A DNA stretch of 64,000 nt from Thiolapillus brandeum (lineage in GTDB: Bacteria > Pseudomonadota > Gammaproteobacteria > Chromatiales > Chromatiaceae), in the NCBI RefSeq assembly GCF_000828615.1, contig NZ_AP012273.1:2294001-2358000 (forward strand), given 5' to 3'. Positions 2,416 to 61,389 of this stretch are shown one piece after another. A program made the translations under genes and the position numbers. Numbering within the stretch: the stretch's first letter is position 1; each line of letters begins with the position of its first letter. The notes under the pieces were generated by a model that was given only the letters and a program-made list of their open reading frames with translations, was not told the DNA's origin and did not search any database.

Positions 2416-3931
2416 TGTCAGGGTTCGCCAGGCGCCGGATATGGGACATGAGATCAGAGGCCAGCAGGCCACGCTCCCCGGCCCTGGCCGCCTTGTCCCC
2501 GGCAGCACCATGCAGACATACTCCAAGCTGAGCGGCTTCCCGTATCGGCCAGCCCTGAGCCAGCCAACCGGCAATCACTCCAGTGAGCACATCTCCCATA
2601 CCACCACTGGCCATCCCCGGATTGCCATCAGAACAGACAGCAGGACAATGATGAGCACCCGCAGCAATGATGCTGCCCGCACCTTTGAGCACCACCACGC
2701 CGCCATACTGGCGCTGAATCGCCTCCGCTGCCGCGAAGCGATCCCCATGAACGTCCCGGGTCGTCCACCCCAGGAGCCGGGCGGCTTCCCCCGGATGTGG
2801 CGTCAGCACCCAGTCTTCACGATGCCGGGGCGCATCGGCCAGGAGGTTCAGGGCATCCGCATCCACCACCAGGGGAAGCTCCCGATCCAGTACCCGCTGC
2901 CAAAGAGCCTGCCCCCAGGACTGTCGGCCAAGACCGGGGCCCAGGGCAATGACACTGGCCTTTTCCAGCAAGGGATCAATATGCGCAGCCTCTTCCACCG
3001 GGTGAACCATGATTTCGGGGCGACCGGCAAGCACCCCGGGAAGATGTTCCCGGCGGGTGGCAAGGCTCACCAGCCCCGCCCCCGTGCGCAACGCTGCCTC
3101 GGCACAAAGACGCCCCGCCCCGGCATATCCCCGGTCGCCACCCACCACCAGCACATGGCCAAAGTCTCCCTTGTGAGCACTGCGTTTTCTGGGGCGCAGA
3201 TGCTTGCGCTGACTCGACCAGTCCAGGCGGCGGGCGGAAAGTACCTGGCTGGCATACACCCAGGCCGGCACATCCAGGGCATGAAAGCTGATGTCTCCAC
3301 AGCAATCCGGTCCATCCGCAGTGAACATGCCCTGCTTCAGGGCAATGAAGCTGATGGTGGCATCCGCGCATACTGCAGTACCCAGTATTGAGCCCGTATC
3401 CGAATGCAGACCCGATGGGATATCCAGAGACAGCACAGGGATGTTGGCGGCATTCACCTGTCCAAGGATACGCGCCCAGCGGCCTTCCACGGTACGCTCC
3501 AGGCCCGTGCCCAACACGGCATCGACAATGAGATCCACATCCTGCGGCAGGTGATCACCGCAAGGCCGCCAGGGACCGGACAAGGCCGCATAACGCAAGG
3601 CGTTTGCGCGGGCGTCCCCCCTGATGCGCTCCCGGTCACCCAGTTGCAGTATCTGCACCTCCATTCCCGCCTGCAGGGCAAGGCGCGCCAATACGAAGCC
3701 ATCACCGCCATTGTTCCCGGTTCCGGCCAGTACCAGGATACGCCGGGCTTCCGGCCAACGCCCGCGCAGGAGGTCGAAAGCGGCCTGGCCCGCCCGTTCC
3801 ATGAGGGTATCGCCGGGAATGCCATAATCCTCGATCGCCAGGCGGTCCATCTCACGCACCTGCCCGGCACGGTACAGAGCCGCAGGCAGGCAATCTTTGT
3901 CAGGCAGGGGACGCCAGGTTTTCATGGGCAT
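2408..3931 (-). CDS. nnr: Bifunctional NAD(P)H-hydrate epimerase / ADP-dependent dehydratase
   Basis: 507 residues. Repairs damaged nicotinamide cofactors: the N-terminal YjeF_N domain (about 20-220, with GTGNNGGDGFV) epimerises R- and S-NAD(P)HX, and the C-terminal carbohydrate-kinase-like domain (about 240-505, with LTPHPGEAARL and GGMGDVLTG) dehydrates S-NAD(P)HX. First gene of the minus-strand nnr-tsaE-amiB unit. Its start is about 30 bases from the divergent queG start, so the two promoters must be compact or overlap the coding regions. Possible starts are TTG 3937, ATG 3931 and ATG 3925; none has a strong ribosome site. Confidence 0.93.
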   Translation of the reverse strand: MPMKTWRPLPDKDCLPAALYRAGQVREMDRLAIEDYGIPGDTLMERAGQAAFDLLRGRWPEARRILVLAGTGNNGGDGFVLARLALQAGMEVQILQLGDRERIRGDARANALRYAALSGPWRPCGDHLPQDVDLIVDAVLGTGLERTVEGRWARILGQVNAANIPVLSLDIPSGLHSDTGSILGTAVCADATISFIALKQGMFTADGPDCCGDISFHALDVPAWVYASQVLSARRLDWSSQRKHLRPRKRSAHKGDFGHVLVVGGDRGYAGAGRLCAEAALRTGAGLVSLATRREHLPGVLAGRPEIMVHPVEEAAHIDPLLEKASVIALGPGLGRQSWGQALWQRVLDRELPLVVDADALNLLADAPRHREDWVLTPHPGEAARLLGWTTRDVHGDRFAAAEAIQRQYGGVVVLKGAGSIIAAGAHHCPAVCSDGNPGMASGGMGDVLTGVIAGWLAQGWPIREAAQLGVCLHGAAGDKAARAGERGLLASDLMSHIRRLANPDNE

Positions 3932-19447: not shown

Positions 19448-19609
19448 GGGCATCTCTATTAATTCTGTTTGAGCAGATCTGTGTTTGAGGAGCTCAAGAA
19501 CAAGGCGAAGATCGCAGCAAATAGCCAGCTATTTGGAAGATATTCAACGAAGTTATTGAGTTTCTCAAACGCAGAGATGCCGGACATGGATTATTGGAGG
19601 TGCCCTTAA
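19444..19609. repeat. 166-bp inverted-repeat element (MITE-like)
   Basis: Ends TTAAGGGCATCTC (19444-19456) and GAGGTGCCCTTAA (19597-19609) are inverted repeats with one mismatch over 13 bases; extended to about 20 bases they match at 17. Inner inverted segments CTGTGTTTGAGGA and TTCTCAAACGCAG give a palindromic body, and AAATAGC / GCTATTT forms the central hairpin. It shares the TTAA at its left end with the neighbouring repeat. Together with that repeat it occupies much of the gene-free stretch 18969-19676, in which I see no other gene. Confidence 0.7.
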
Positions 19610-55579: not shown

Positions 55580-56909
55580 ATGCAGAGTGCTGAGAGTAAA
55601 AGAGTAGAAAAGATCGAGCTTCTGATCGAACAGGCGGTCAGGCTGCGCGAGGACGACTCGGCTCGAGCCATAGAACTGTGCGACGAAGCTATTGCTCTGG
55701 CCAAAAAGATTGAAGCTTCAGAACTGTCAGCACAGGCTTCTGTTCTACTGGCCCAGGCCCTGCTCTACAACGGCCGCTCCCAGGAGGCACTGGATACTGC
55801 ATTGCGCCTGGTAAACAGCACCGGCCAGCGATCAAAAACTCTGAAGGCAGACGCTCTGGACACACTGGCGCTGGTTTACGACACACTCGGTGCTTACCAG
55901 GATTCACTGCAAATACGCCTGGAACAACTCGATATCCTGCAGCAGCTTGAAGATGATCTGGGAATAGCCAATGTCCTGCACGCCATAGGGGTAGCCTATG
56001 CGCGCATGGATGACCACGCCAAATCCCTGGAAAACTACGAGCAGGCATACCGATTGAAGCAGTCGTTGGGCGCATCAGTGGAAAGCCAGGCCAAAACCCT
56101 CAACAATATCGGCCTTGCCAATCGCAATCTGAAAAATTTCGAAGCATCCCTTGCTGCACACATCAAGGCTGTGCAAATGATGGAACAGGAAAACAGCTTG
56201 TTTCTATCAGCTGCGGCACGCGGCAATCTGGCCCGTGTCCAGGAAGAGATCGGAGATGTGGAGTCGGCCGTCCAGAATTATGAGTCGGCGCTGAAAACCA
56301 TGCAGGAGACCAGCAGCCGTTATTTTTTGTCCGAATTGTTCCGGAACTATGCCGAATTGGAAGTTCGACAGAAAAACAACCAACATGCCATCGAGCTATG
56401 CCAAAAAGCGCTGGACCTGGGATATGAGATGGGCATGAAACCGGAAATTTTCAAAGCCCACCACCTCCTGGCGGAGATTCATGAGAGCCTCGATGCCTTC
56501 CCGGAAGCCCTACACCACCTGCGCCGTTTTCATGCGGTCGAAAAAGAAGTTTACAATGCGGAATCCGAGGCCCGGATACAGAATATGCGCGTTTTGCATG
56601 AACTGGAGCGCGCTCAACAGGAAAGCAAAATATACCGCTTGAAAAATGTTGAACTGGCAGAAGCGCTGGAAAAGGCGGAGCAGCTGCAACGCATGCTCGA
56701 AAAACAGTCTCTGGAAGATCAGCTCACCGGACTTCACAACCGGCGCCACCTGAATCAACGATTGCAGGTTGAATTCGACCGAACCCGACGGCACCAGCAA
56801 CCCTTGTCGCTGGTATTGTGTGATATTGATCATTTCAAACAGGTGAATGACCGTTTTTCCCATGCCATGGGCGATGAGGTATTGAAAGTCGTCGCCAATA
56901 TTCTTATTA
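55580..56909 (+). pseudogene. TPR-GGDEF diguanylate cyclase, 5' part (disrupted)
   Basis: About 443 original residues remain before the insertion; a further 28 codons read into the insertion up to 56995. Tetratricopeptide repeats (about 30-310, e.g. SQAKTLNNIGLANRNLKNFEASLAAH), a coiled-coil linker (about 320-380), then the start of a GGDEF domain (DQLTGLHNRRHLNQRL, LCDIDHFKQVNDRFSHAMGDEVLK). The break lies after VVANILI, before the GGEEF active-site loop, so this product cannot make cyclic-di-GMP. The missing end is at 58926-59223. Confidence 0.88.
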
Positions 56910-57007
56910 GACATGATGTTTTGACCTGCCCAACCTCAACGAACGTGGATTATGCTGGGGTTGGGAAATACACTCCCGACACAGAGCCACATTGAGGAGG
57001 ACAGGTC

Positions 57008-58216
57008 ATGAAAGAGTCTATCGCAAAAGCCATTGATAAACAGACAAAAGCGGCGCAGGTGAACACGGCGGATGCAGGCAGCTACGCGGCCTACATCGGG
57101 TTGGATGTTCACAAAGACACCATTGCGGTGGCTATCGCGTTACCGGGCCGGGAAGAACCGGTCTACCGGGGTGAAATTGCCCATGAAGGCCGAAAGGTGG
57201 AAAAATGGCTGAATCGCCTGAGTGTCGAGTTTGATGGTCAGGTGCTGCAATTCTGCTATGAAGCAGGGCCCTGCGGCTACGGGCTGTATCGCCGCCTGGT
57301 GGGGGCGGGTCATGACTGCCAGGTCGTGGCCCCCTCACTGATTCCGAGGAAGGCTGGTGAGCGGATCAAGACCGATCGGCGGGATGCACTGAAGTTGGCG
57401 CGGCTGTTACGGGCCGGTGAGCTGACAGCAGTGTGGGTACCGGATGCTGAGCAGGAGGCCATGCGGGATCTGACCCGGGCCCGGGACGACATGAAGAGCC
57501 AGGAGCGCAAGGCGCGTCAGCAGCTTAATGCTTTTGTGTTGCGTCACGGCCACCACTGGCCCCGGGGCAAGAAGCGCTGGACCCAGGCGCATTTCAACTG
57601 GCTGGAATCGATCCAATTTGAGCAGCCCTGGCTGCAGATTGTGCTGCAGGAATACATCGATGCAGTCAAGGCGGCGACCCGGCGGGTCACTGACCTGACC
57701 GAGCAGCTGATGCAAGCCTTACCGGGCTGGTCATTGGCCCCGGTGGTGGACGCCCTGGTGGCCCTGCGGGGGGTCGACAAGTTGGCCGCTACCGTCCTGC
57801 TGGCGGAGTTGGGCGATATCAGCCGTTTCGATTCCCCGAAACAGCTGATGGCCTACCTGGGACTGGTGCCGAGCGAGCATAGCAGTGGCGGCCGGCGACG
57901 TCAGGGCGCGATCACCCTGACCGGCAACGGTCATGCGCGCCGGATGCTGGTGGAGTGTGCCTGGAGCTACCGCTTTCCGGCGCGCCAGACGATGCATCTC
58001 AAACGAAAGGCCAAGGCGGCACCAGAACGGGCCAAGGCGATCGCCTGGCGGGCCCAGAAGCGTCTCTGCGGTCGCTATCGTCAGCTCACGCAGGCCGGCA
58101 AGAACGTCAAGTTGGTGTGTGTCGCGATTGCCCGGGAATTGGTCGGCTTCATCTGGGACATCGTACGGCAGGAGATGCCCCGCCTGATGGCCAAGAGTGG
58201 ATCGGCGGCTGGATAA
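57008..58216 (+). CDS. IS110/IS1111-family DEDD transposase
   Basis: 402 residues, apparently intact. N-terminal RuvC-like DEDD domain: Asp33 (GLDVHKDT), Glu85 (CYEAGPCG), Asp123 and Asp126 (KTDRRDAL). C-terminal Transposase_20 domain with AELGDISRFDSPKQLMAYLGL and the putative catalytic serine at 292/293 (SEHSSGGRRRQG), then TGNGHARRML. GAGGAC precedes the ATG. Family members act with an element-encoded guide RNA that chooses the target. Confidence 0.95.
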   Translation: MKESIAKAIDKQTKAAQVNTADAGSYAAYIGLDVHKDTIAVAIALPGREEPVYRGEIAHEGRKVEKWLNRLSVEFDGQVLQFCYEAGPCGYGLYRRLVGAGHDCQVVAPSLIPRKAGERIKTDRRDALKLARLLRAGELTAVWVPDAEQEAMRDLTRARDDMKSQERKARQQLNAFVLRHGHHWPRGKKRWTQAHFNWLESIQFEQPWLQIVLQEYIDAVKAATRRVTDLTEQLMQALPGWSLAPVVDALVALRGVDKLAATVLLAELGDISRFDSPKQLMAYLGLVPSEHSSGGRRRQGAITLTGNGHARRMLVECAWSYRFPARQTMHLKRKAKAAPERAKAIAWRAQKRLCGRYRQLTQAGKNVKLVCVAIARELVGFIWDIVRQEMPRLMAKSGSAAG

Positions 58217-58625
58217 GCCGTGTGCCGCACGATACGACTGCTACCATAGGAGGAGGAACGACAGGCACCTTGACTCAGGGTCTATCTGGCCGGTGTGGAG
58301 AACCCTTGTCCGGGTTATAACGGCATCGGCCATGACGGGATAACCTCAAGCGAGCATTCCCGGTCGATGATCCCTGACATTAGAGAAAGGCCAGCTCTGC
58401 GACGCAGTGAAGTCAGGTGGTAACCAATCCACGCATATCAGCATGATCCACCGTCGCAATCTGCTGGATGGACCCTGAGCCAAGGTGCTTGAACAATACA
58501 CCACGAGACTGACAGATAGATCGAGCATGGGCTTATCCACCCTTTGCCCACCGCTGCGCAATAAGCCAAAGGTTGCTACGCCGTGGACAAAGCGTGGATA
58601 AGCCCTCGGGGCAGTATTAGCTAGG
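58217..58625 (+). ncRNA. Candidate guide (seek/bridge) RNA region of the IS1111 element
   Basis: About 409 bases between the transposase stop and the right inverted repeat with no coding signal. In the IS1111 subgroup this end is known to encode the guide RNA. It contains CCGGGTTA at 58310-58317 and TGGCCGG at 58287-58293, both also present in the terminus of the palindromic element where the IS sits, and a long stem-loop at 58529-58605. Boundaries and structure of the RNA are not established here. Confidence 0.45.
58529..58605 (+). repeat. Long stem-loop near the right end of the IS
   Basis: GGGCTTATCCAC-C-CTTTG at 58529-58546 pairs with CAAAG-C-GTGGATAAGCCC at 58588-58605 (18 positions, one mismatch); the loop holds further pairing between CCACCGCTGCGCAA and TTGCTACGCCGTGG. 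Confidence 0.6.
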
Positions 58626-58647
58626 GGTTGACAGGTCAAAACATATC

Positions 58648-58923
58648 AACCCGGCCACTAAATATATCGCCCTCAGTGCTTCAAACAGGACGCGTATCAA
58701 GGCGCGGCTTGCAGGCAATGGCAAGCCCTTGTCAAAAGCCGCAACACCGATACGCGCCCTGTTTGAAGCACCTAACAAACTGATTATAAAAAGGAAGGCC
58801 GCCCTGTCTGCGCCAGTGGACTGCGTTATCAACACTTGCTGTAGAATGGCTACAGCGGCGCGTTGATGCCTTGCCACCGGCTCAGACAGGGCGGCTGAGG
58901 GCGATATATTTAGTGGCCGGGTT
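58648..58923. mobile_element. 276-bp palindromic element with 29-bp perfect terminal repeats
   Basis: Ends AACCCGGCCACTAAATATAT... (58648-58676) and its perfect reverse complement (58895-58923). Two inner hairpins: GTGCTTCAAACAGG... at 58676-58698 with 58749-58771 (23 positions, one mismatch), and GCCGCCCTGTCTG at 58798-58810 with 58883-58895 (perfect). No credible coding frame. It lies inside the GGDEF gene with the IS1111-type element fused to its left tip. Family unknown to me. Confidence 0.75.
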
Positions 58924-58925
58924 AA

Positions 58926-59223
58926 TTAAAACAATATCCGACAGGAAGACCTGGCAGTGCGTTATGGCGGTGAGGAATTTGTCCTGATGCTGCCCCAAAC
59001 CGGCGGTCGGGAAGCACAGCAGGCCTGCGAACATATTCGCCAGGCCATCGAATCCCATAATTGGAGCAAACTCCACCCTGATCTGAGGGTCACCATGAGT
59101 TTCGGCATCAGCGATCTTGTCTCGCTGGAAAACCACGAAGCCCTGCTGCATCACGCCGATCAGCAGCTCTACAGCGCCAAGCATGCCGGACGAAACCGGG
59201 TATGCTATTCACCATCGGCGTAG
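58926..59223 (+). pseudogene. TPR-GGDEF diguanylate cyclase, 3' part (disrupted)
   Basis: Continues the reading frame broken at 56909: NNIRQEDLAVRYGGEEFVLMLPQ and on to KHAGRNRVCY with a stop codon at 59221-59223. It holds the GGEEF active-site loop and an RxxD inhibitory-site motif (RQED) five residues before it. A stop codon (TAA) from the inserted DNA precedes it. It would be expressed only from an internal start such as GTG 58957, giving an inactive fragment. Confidence 0.85.

Positions 59224-61389
<2,166 letters not shown>

Follow-up and report, generated by a model that had tools for sequence, protein, structure and literature searches.

An IS1111-family insertion sequence in the tip of a MITE-like palindromic element inside a TPR-GGDEF gene of Thiolapillus brandeum

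In the genome of Thiolapillus brandeum, a gene for a TPR-GGDEF protein is interrupted by two nested mobile pieces, a palindromic element of ~285 bp that resembles a miniature inverted-repeat transposable element (MITE) and, in its left tip, an insertion sequence (IS) of the IS1111 family. We analysed the surrounding 64,000-nucleotide stretch of contig NZ_AP012273.1 (hereafter called the window), for which targeted insertion of the IS had been proposed from the sequence alone. The order of nesting is palindromic element first, IS second. We consider it highly likely that two successive insertions took place and that the IS was guided by a seekRNA from its own non-coding region to T|A in the element tip (the bar marks the insertion point throughout). 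The pieces are arranged as follows, in window positions.

55580 to 56906, + strand: 5' portion of the interrupted TPR-GGDEF gene (Pfam matches to TPR and GGDEF; orthologues L062 and L063)
56905 to 56906, no strand: TA bordering the palindromic element on the left, presumed target duplication (orthologues; other copies edged by TA)
56907 to 56908, + strand: TT that begins the palindromic element and is separated from its remainder by the IS (free copies have the tip TATTAACCCGG)
56909 to 58647, + strand: IS1111-family insertion sequence, 1739 bp, intact (six copies sharing end sequences; Pfam)
58648 to 58925, + strand: rest of the palindromic, three-armed element, AACCCGGC...GCCGGGTTAA (inverted repeats; alignment)
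58926 to 58927, no strand: presumed right target duplication, now TT where TA is expected
58928 to 59223, + strand: 3' part of the broken GGDEF gene (Pfam match for 58957-59220; orthologue comparison)

The transposase of the IS harbours a DEDD_Tnp_IS110 domain (PF01548, 66.2 bits) and a C-terminal Transposase_20 domain (PF02371, 73.5 bits), both above cut-off. Its subterminal inverted repeats are separated from the IS ends by 7 nt on the left and 3 nt on the right, an asymmetry that defines the IS1111 family according to PMC11187229, and a longer non-coding region extends from the end of tnp (58216) to the end of the IS (58647). These features bear out the predicted IS1111-type identity. Two further hallmarks of the family are present, namely segments in the predicted non-coding RNA that match, by sequence and predicted fold, the top and then the bottom strand of the target, and insertion without target duplication, since the joined flanks equal the tip TATTAACCCGG of free palindromic elements elsewhere.

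56916 to 56935, + strand: left-hand subterminal inverted repeat, with 7 nt between it and the IS end (inverted-repeat detection)
57008 to 58216, + strand: DEDD transposase gene, 402 aa (open reading frame; Pfam)
58625 to 58644, + strand: right-hand subterminal inverted repeat, with 3 nt between it and the IS end (inverted-repeat detection)

The genome contains six copies of this IS, with 99-100% identity over the covered part of the query. Their left flanks end in TATT (four copies), AATT (one) or AGCT (one), and their right flanks are AACCCGGC (four), AGCCCGGAG (one) and AGCCCGGATATTTCACC (one), which yields the target T|ARCCCGG at all six. In the window, the IS lies between TATT (56905-56908) and AACCCGG (starting at 58648). 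The same sequence is found uninterrupted at the tips of most free elements, which places the point of entry after TATT and before AACCCGG, 4 nt into the tip, with no bases duplicated. The original prediction had correctly placed the right end of the IS at 58647 and recognised a palindromic element next to it; however, the latter is ~285 rather than 276 bp long, with TATTAACCCGG as its usual tip, and the IS is located inside that tip instead of abutting its first base.

Four of the six copies are found at tips of the ~285-bp element family, in agreement with the proposed targeting of the end of a palindromic element. The full-length element follows the AACCCGGC flank in three of the four cases (window, L003, L005), and the copy at L006 occupies the tip of a different palindrome, ~124 bp long. 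With the recurrence of T|ARCCCGG at all copies and of the same element family at four of them, we did not observe the unrelated flanks that would have spoken against targeting. When 19 copies from this and other genomes were considered together, ten were at an outer palindrome tip (L001, L003, L005 and L006, i.e. 4/6, in T. brandeum; L078, L083, L085, L097, L106 and L110 elsewhere), compared with 8 of 1058 background positions; the right boundary of L106, at first misplaced owing to a duplicated right end, was redetermined for this test. A chance adjacency of IS and palindrome was rejected on the basis of the 4/6 and 10/19 counts.

The non-coding region downstream of the transposase gene is predicted to adopt a fold like that of a seekRNA. 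Alignment of the window's IS with nine relatives from other species showed a mean column identity of 84% in this region, with the exception of two variable islands, hereafter called guides T and B. In the consensus fold, 23 of 68 pairs show two-sided changes, and the two islands face each other within one large unpaired internal loop. Guide T precedes guide B, the same order as described for IS1111 seekRNAs. As ATATCAGCATGATCCACC is identical in the ten ISs and resembles the joined IS ends, the segment that contains it is probably the donor-binding part.

58263 to 58492, + strand: predicted seekRNA region downstream of the transposase gene (fold conserved in the ten ISs)
58310 to 58317, + strand: guide T (CCGGGTTA), the complement of T|AACCCGG on the top strand of the target (covaries with right flanks; unpaired in the consensus fold)
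58379 to 58383, + strand: guide B (ATTAG), matching the left side of the target top strand, ATT|A (covaries with left flanks; unpaired in the consensus fold)
58434 to 58447, + strand: putative donor-binding segment (CATATCAGCATGAT), closely resembling in sequence the junction of the right and left IS ends (ATATCAGCATGATCCACC identical in 10/10 aligned ISs)

Both guides covary with the target flanks, which supports the guide-RNA mechanism put forward in the original prediction. Guide T reaches a score of 7 or more out of 8 with the right flank in all six T. brandeum copies, with wobble pairs counted as half. Over 20 copies with 11 distinct guides, its pairing score totals 130, whereas permutations average 117.6 and 1 of 20000 attains the observed value; with one value per distinct guide (11) the proportion is 154 of 20000 (0.8%). 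The corresponding score for guide B is 60 against 46.7 over 21 copies (9 of 20000 permutations), or 198 of 20000 (1%) with one value for each of 10 distinct guides. L077 and L080 entered these analyses without a right flank and L082 without a left flank; L104, which has no detectable left repeat, is in no test. Guides differ together with targets, as illustrated by CAGGCT for AGCCTG in L084, GGGGCT for AGCCCC in L081, CCGGGCT for AGCCCGG in L085 and CCGGGTT for AACCCGG in the T. brandeum IS. Within one genome, G389, guide B is GACGTT in L108 and GACGCT in L097, L106 and L110, a one-base difference, and the left flank of L108, GTT, matches its own guide, a possible case of guide redirection inside a single genome.

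A number of observations weigh against this interpretation. Guide T fits poorly in L098 (2.5/8) and in L079 and L082 (5/8 each). Guide B is short, and the T. brandeum copies match it at one to four of its five bases, L006 at one only. The rows are not independent, six of them coming from T. brandeum and four from G389, and collapsing to distinct guides weakens the tests considerably. As for the palindromic target, the copy at L002 is followed by a single terminal repeat after its AACCCGGC flank, i.e. by half an element, and the copy at L004 lies outside any palindrome. Lastly, the right edge of the element in the window is TT rather than TA, so that the presumed target duplication depends on one assumed substitution.

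Alternatively, the IS might recognise the palindrome itself, as a cruciform or a folded end, and not a linear sequence through a guide RNA. The excess of copies at palindrome tips and the use of attC and repetitive extragenic palindromic (REP) sites by known IS1111 relatives, as reported in PMC11187229, are in line with this idea, but we regard it as very unlikely. No palindrome was found at nine of the 19 copies, and seven of these nine, i.e. all but L079 and L098, nevertheless score at least 6/8 with their guide. The covariation of guides and flanks also argues for reading of a sequence. Moreover, tips of the ~285-bp family make up 42 of the 58 unoccupied TTARCCCGG sites of the genome, a share similar to that among occupied sites (4/6), which reveals no visible enrichment beyond abundance, six being a small number; the count of free tips includes three found as 16-mers with one mismatch, and the reversed pattern used as a control gave 25 sites. 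Most simply, the element recognised by the IS would be a sequence of ~10 nt, which happens to be carried by the tips of abundant palindromes. The original proposal is therefore supported, with the refinement that this short sequence, rather than the palindrome as such, seems to be read. The adjacency of IS and palindrome in the window, L003 and L005 could also suggest a composite, with the palindrome as a passenger or end structure of the IS. We give practically no credence to this possibility, because 16 of the 19 full-length copies of the element are devoid of an IS and the IS copies at L004 and L006 are without this element. Each piece exists in free copies, and we therefore rejected the palindrome as a part of the IS, an outcome that had been named as one that would overturn the targeting proposal.

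In the mechanism that we favour, the non-coding region that follows the transposase gene of the IS would be transcribed into a seekRNA. The target-loop segment CCGGGTTA would pair with the target top strand T|AACCCGG and ATTAG would match the top strand across the same insertion point, so that the transposase would join a circular IS into T|A without target duplication. Expression of the seekRNA, the circular intermediate and the strand-transfer chemistry would follow what PMC11187229 and PMC11208160 describe for other members of the family.

Additional observations were made around the insertion sites. A second palindrome is present in the window at ~59566-59693, ~1 kb from the IS, with a free TTAACCCGG target at its tip; by eye, it resembles the palindrome into which the L006 copy is inserted. 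At L106 (~2990-3290), the right end of the IS and part of the non-coding region appear to be tandemly duplicated. In another species, a relative of the IS (L076, 607-763) lies just past a hairpin module of the type described below, apparently inside an element with a CTAGTGTCCTGTCCCGC end.

59685 to 59693, - strand: unoccupied target-like tip (TTAACCCGG) of the second palindrome

The interrupted gene stops after ~440 codons and its C-terminal part picks up at ~58928, with the IS and the palindromic element as the pieces in between. The left frame (scanned as 55580-56995) corresponds to positions 3-66 of the Pfam GGDEF profile and the right frame (58957-59220) to positions 77-161, which confirms that the two nested pieces interrupt a GGDEF gene. 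A search for the empty gene in related genomes, as had been suggested, yielded uninterrupted orthologues in two genomes of the same genus (L062 and L063), with 56 and 54% identity over the 5' part. At the insertion site, the orthologous sequence is L-L-R-D-N-V-R. The window flanks give I-L-K-N-N-I-R with an open frame on the assumption that TA was the site of entry and that its right-hand copy has since changed to TT. This join replaces the L-I-K-N-N-I proposed earlier, which has one codon more than the orthologues. The palindromic element thus probably entered the GGDEF gene at a TA dinucleotide. In the sequence of events that we envisage, a non-autonomous MITE-like element of ~285 bp would have entered the TPR-GGDEF gene, probably at TA, after which an apparently recently active IS1111-family element would have inserted 4 nt inside its left tip.

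The palindromic element is an abundant component of the genome. Using paired tips, we identified 19 full-length copies, three with an IS in one tip and 16 without, as well as three short tip pairs of 129-138 bp. Most free copies begin with TATTAACCCGGC and end with GCCGGGTTAATA; L010, L014 and L022 are among the exceptions, with one base different. In the window, the palindrome arms beside the IS are 32 nt long and 97% complementary. Single-strand folding gives a three-armed structure, in which a terminal stem of ~30 bp encloses two hairpins, A and B, which are one module in opposite orientations.

58676 to 58773, + strand: hairpin module A, sense on the + strand (model R1, 75.7 bits)
58798 to 58895, - strand: hairpin module B, a second copy of the module, on the - strand (model R1, 77.1 bits)

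In an alignment of 18 elements (that of the window and 17 others), 96.5% of 1888 cells are paired, and two-sided changes occur in 62 of 105 pairs, compared with 38.2 +/- 2.7 after shuffling. None of 500 shuffles reached any of five measures. Pairing fell to 32-38% when the partner was shifted by a single base. In 32 aligned arms, the AAC of the internal loop is invariant and the outer stem freely variable; these arms were selected by the motif CAAG[GA]C, and the constancy of their CAAGGC columns results from that selection. The B arms were not selected by motif, and GCCTTG and GTT, the reverse complements of CAAGGC and AAC, are found in 18 of 18 elements.

The element has the hallmarks of MITEs in that it is short (~285 bp), dispersed (19 full-length tip pairs), non-coding and bounded by terminal inverted repeats. 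TA is present at the edges of copies, and the one gene for which orthologues are available fits a TA duplication, given one substitution. For other copies, candidate intragenic insertions were inspected and none was clean enough to define an empty site, with no dedicated search made. A MITE derived from IS630/Tc1-mariner elements would have a TA duplication and ends in common with an IS630 element; what was observed is TA at the edges. An autonomous parent should show up as two unpaired tips, left then right, no more than 3 kb apart; none was detected in T. brandeum (with at most one mismatch), nor in G155 with exact tips only, degenerate ends and other genomes being outside this search, and no longer element with the same ends was found in either genome. 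The three short versions (L174, L175 and L176, at genome positions 403251, 1969254 and 1249795) seem to join the 5' portion of one hairpin directly to the 3' portion of its counterpart, and L176 lies after the end of a gene that, by eye, resembles tsf. Also by eye, the elements at L134 and L144 appear to be located at the very end of coding frames, where their TA/TAG tip may supply the stop codon.

To follow the hairpin beyond T. brandeum, we used a covariance model of the module, R1. It does not include the outer stem, which RNAalifold omitted, in our reading because of a one-base register difference between A and B arms. At E <= 1e-4, R1 matches were found in 114 of 369 genomes of Gammaproteobacteria. 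In an overlapping sample of 398 genomes of Pseudomonadota, 91 have matches, 47 of them from the same class (including T. brandeum) and 44 from outside, with 36 of the 44 belonging to one family. As at most 10-11 candidates were scored per genome, these figures are counts of genomes and not copy numbers. In 77 loci, which overlap and were mostly retained for matching the model, we identified 142 R1 hits (136 distinct), with CAAGGC in 129. The hits form 60 convergent neighbour pairs (57 distinct) and 22 are unpaired, with no divergent or tandem pair within 60 nt in these loci; the one divergent pair, at 62 nt (L154), is in our reading formed between two neighbouring elements. The terminal repeats differ between lineages (CTAGTACTCC..., CTAGTGTCCTGTC..., CTAGTGTAGTGCG... 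or TATTAACCCGGC...).

We also came across a few unusual arrangements. A single module (R1, 41 bits) is found in the window at 19479-19574 within a different class of repeat, with ends GGGCATCTC.../GGAGGTGCCC, and a similar single-module case, with CTAG-flanked GGAACCTCTGAATAAG ends, is present at L002 (3243-3338). One hairpin appears to be missing from an element copy in G237 (L173, ~2250-2460, read to 2461), where it was lost by a clean cut at the base, and in G097 (L172, 1164-1354) another palindromic repeat occupies the spacer between hairpins A and B. G155 harbours tip-to-tip inverted repeats of 34 and 40 bp (582216-582249 and 2338977-2339016), with no room for hairpins.

Rfam searches with the window stretch 56800-60000 and six loci returned only miRNA matches below the gathering score, and an Rfam identity of the hairpin or element was rejected on that basis. 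Two terminal inverted repeat patterns are present in viral contigs, in 8 and 4 stretches, with no hairpin match in the parts of those contigs examined. Element L164 has no match in plasmids and element L149 none in phages, and carriage of the element by phages or plasmids was likewise rejected. Correia/NEMIS, ERIC and REP sequences are dispersed non-coding inverted repeats with hairpins, some of them TA-edged, but none to our knowledge is described as two convergent CAAGGC/AACG hairpins. The same applies to the R repeats of Pseudomonas fluorescens, also dispersed non-coding inverted repeats with hairpins, as described in PMC2718517; the R families may include local members of the two-hairpin family. 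We found no description of a two-hairpin repeat family in the open-access literature, where local names in single genomes may exist.

The outer stems of the hairpins show a strand signature. Among 88 non-redundant modules, 74 of which could be paired by the rule used, the sense orientation has 1299 Watson-Crick, 122 G.T, 22 A.C and 111 other cells (binomial p 5e-18 for G.T versus A.C, with cells treated as independent although related). R1 leaves the outer stem unpaired, so the model search does not force this result. Strand-neutral processes, among them selection for cruciforms and quasi-palindrome correction, predict equal numbers of G.T and A.C cells, and the imbalance thus suggests that each arm is maintained as a folded sense strand, of RNA or single-stranded DNA. 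Such processes, in particular correction of quasi-palindromes by template switching, could make the hairpins look conserved with no selected structure. This explanation is unlikely in our view, albeit less so than those considered above for the IS. It would account for outer stems and inner parts of the terminal repeats that vary between copies yet remain complementary within each copy. In its favour also, the B arm of the 18-row alignment has 43 G.T versus 15 A.C cells on the + strand, contrary to what a strand bias predicts for an arm with its sense on the opposite strand, although two invariant pairs contribute 36 of the 43, and without them the numbers are 7 and 15 (p 0.13). Against it speak an internal loop that is both unpaired and conserved (AAC in 32/32 arms, GCCTTG and GTT in 18/18 B arms) and the G.T excess of the sense outer stems; in the 18-row alignment, the terminal stem is near equality, with 15 G.T versus 13 A.C, and the A arm has 22 versus 8.

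We tentatively propose, with slightly more doubt than confidence, a pan-Pseudomonadota superfamily of MITE-like elements with two convergent RNA-like hairpins and lineage-specific terminal repeats, kept as folded sense strand, to whose tips IS1111 guides have been retuned. The module would combine an outer stem of free sequence with a conserved CAAGGC/AAC internal loop, and a transcript entering from either side would meet a sense hairpin first. A role of the hairpins as 3'-end devices was rejected for lack of an orientation bias, as the 3' end faces the element in 30 of 60 flanking genes; the crude open reading frame rule used classified 30 of the 60 elements, which include overlapping loci. 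Should the proposal be correct, the hairpins would be a portable module of structured RNA (or single-stranded DNA) carried between mobile ends that are unrelated to one another, with IS1111 elements adjusting their guides so as to exploit the repeat tips.

IS1111 elements are already known to enter MITEs, REPs, attC sites and the ends of transposons. IS4321 and IS5075 reportedly reside in the terminal repeats of Tn21-family transposons and are, like the IS described here, IS1111 members aimed at the terminal inverted repeat of another element; unlike theirs, the host here is a non-coding MITE-like repeat and not a Tn3-family transposon. In Coxiella burnetii, the small QMITE2 lies downstream of 20 of 21 annotated IS1111 copies, according to PMC5896051 and PMC10969869. 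There too, an IS1111-family element lands in a dispersed MITE-like palindrome, but QMITE2 is 150-190 bp long with a GTAG REP and direct repeats of 7-11 nt, whereas the element in T. brandeum is ~285 bp, TA-edged, composed of two hairpin modules and targeted at TATT|AACCCGG. ISEc11, ISKpn4, ISPst6 and ISPa11 share with our IS the downstream non-coding region, the order of guide T before guide B and the 7/3 extensions (PMC11187229). Their targets are a short linear site, attC or REP, unlike the MITE-like tips found here, where the RNA is a prediction. The natural redirection by changed guides reported for ISEc11/ISXne4 in the same paper parallels the changes of guide and target that we observed. 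The IS of T. brandeum is thus a further member of a known guided-insertion behaviour, and the novelty lies mainly in its target family.

The natural copies of this IS constitute an independent test of seekRNA guides, as guides vary in step with their targets from species to species, and perhaps in one instance within a single genome, which ties the evolution of the guides to abundant host palindromes. The hairpin module has no Rfam match and yet is present in roughly a quarter to a third of the sampled genomes, which suggests that a large class of repeats has been overlooked. These repeats have spread with no visible parent transposase in the two genomes checked, and their function is now open to testing.

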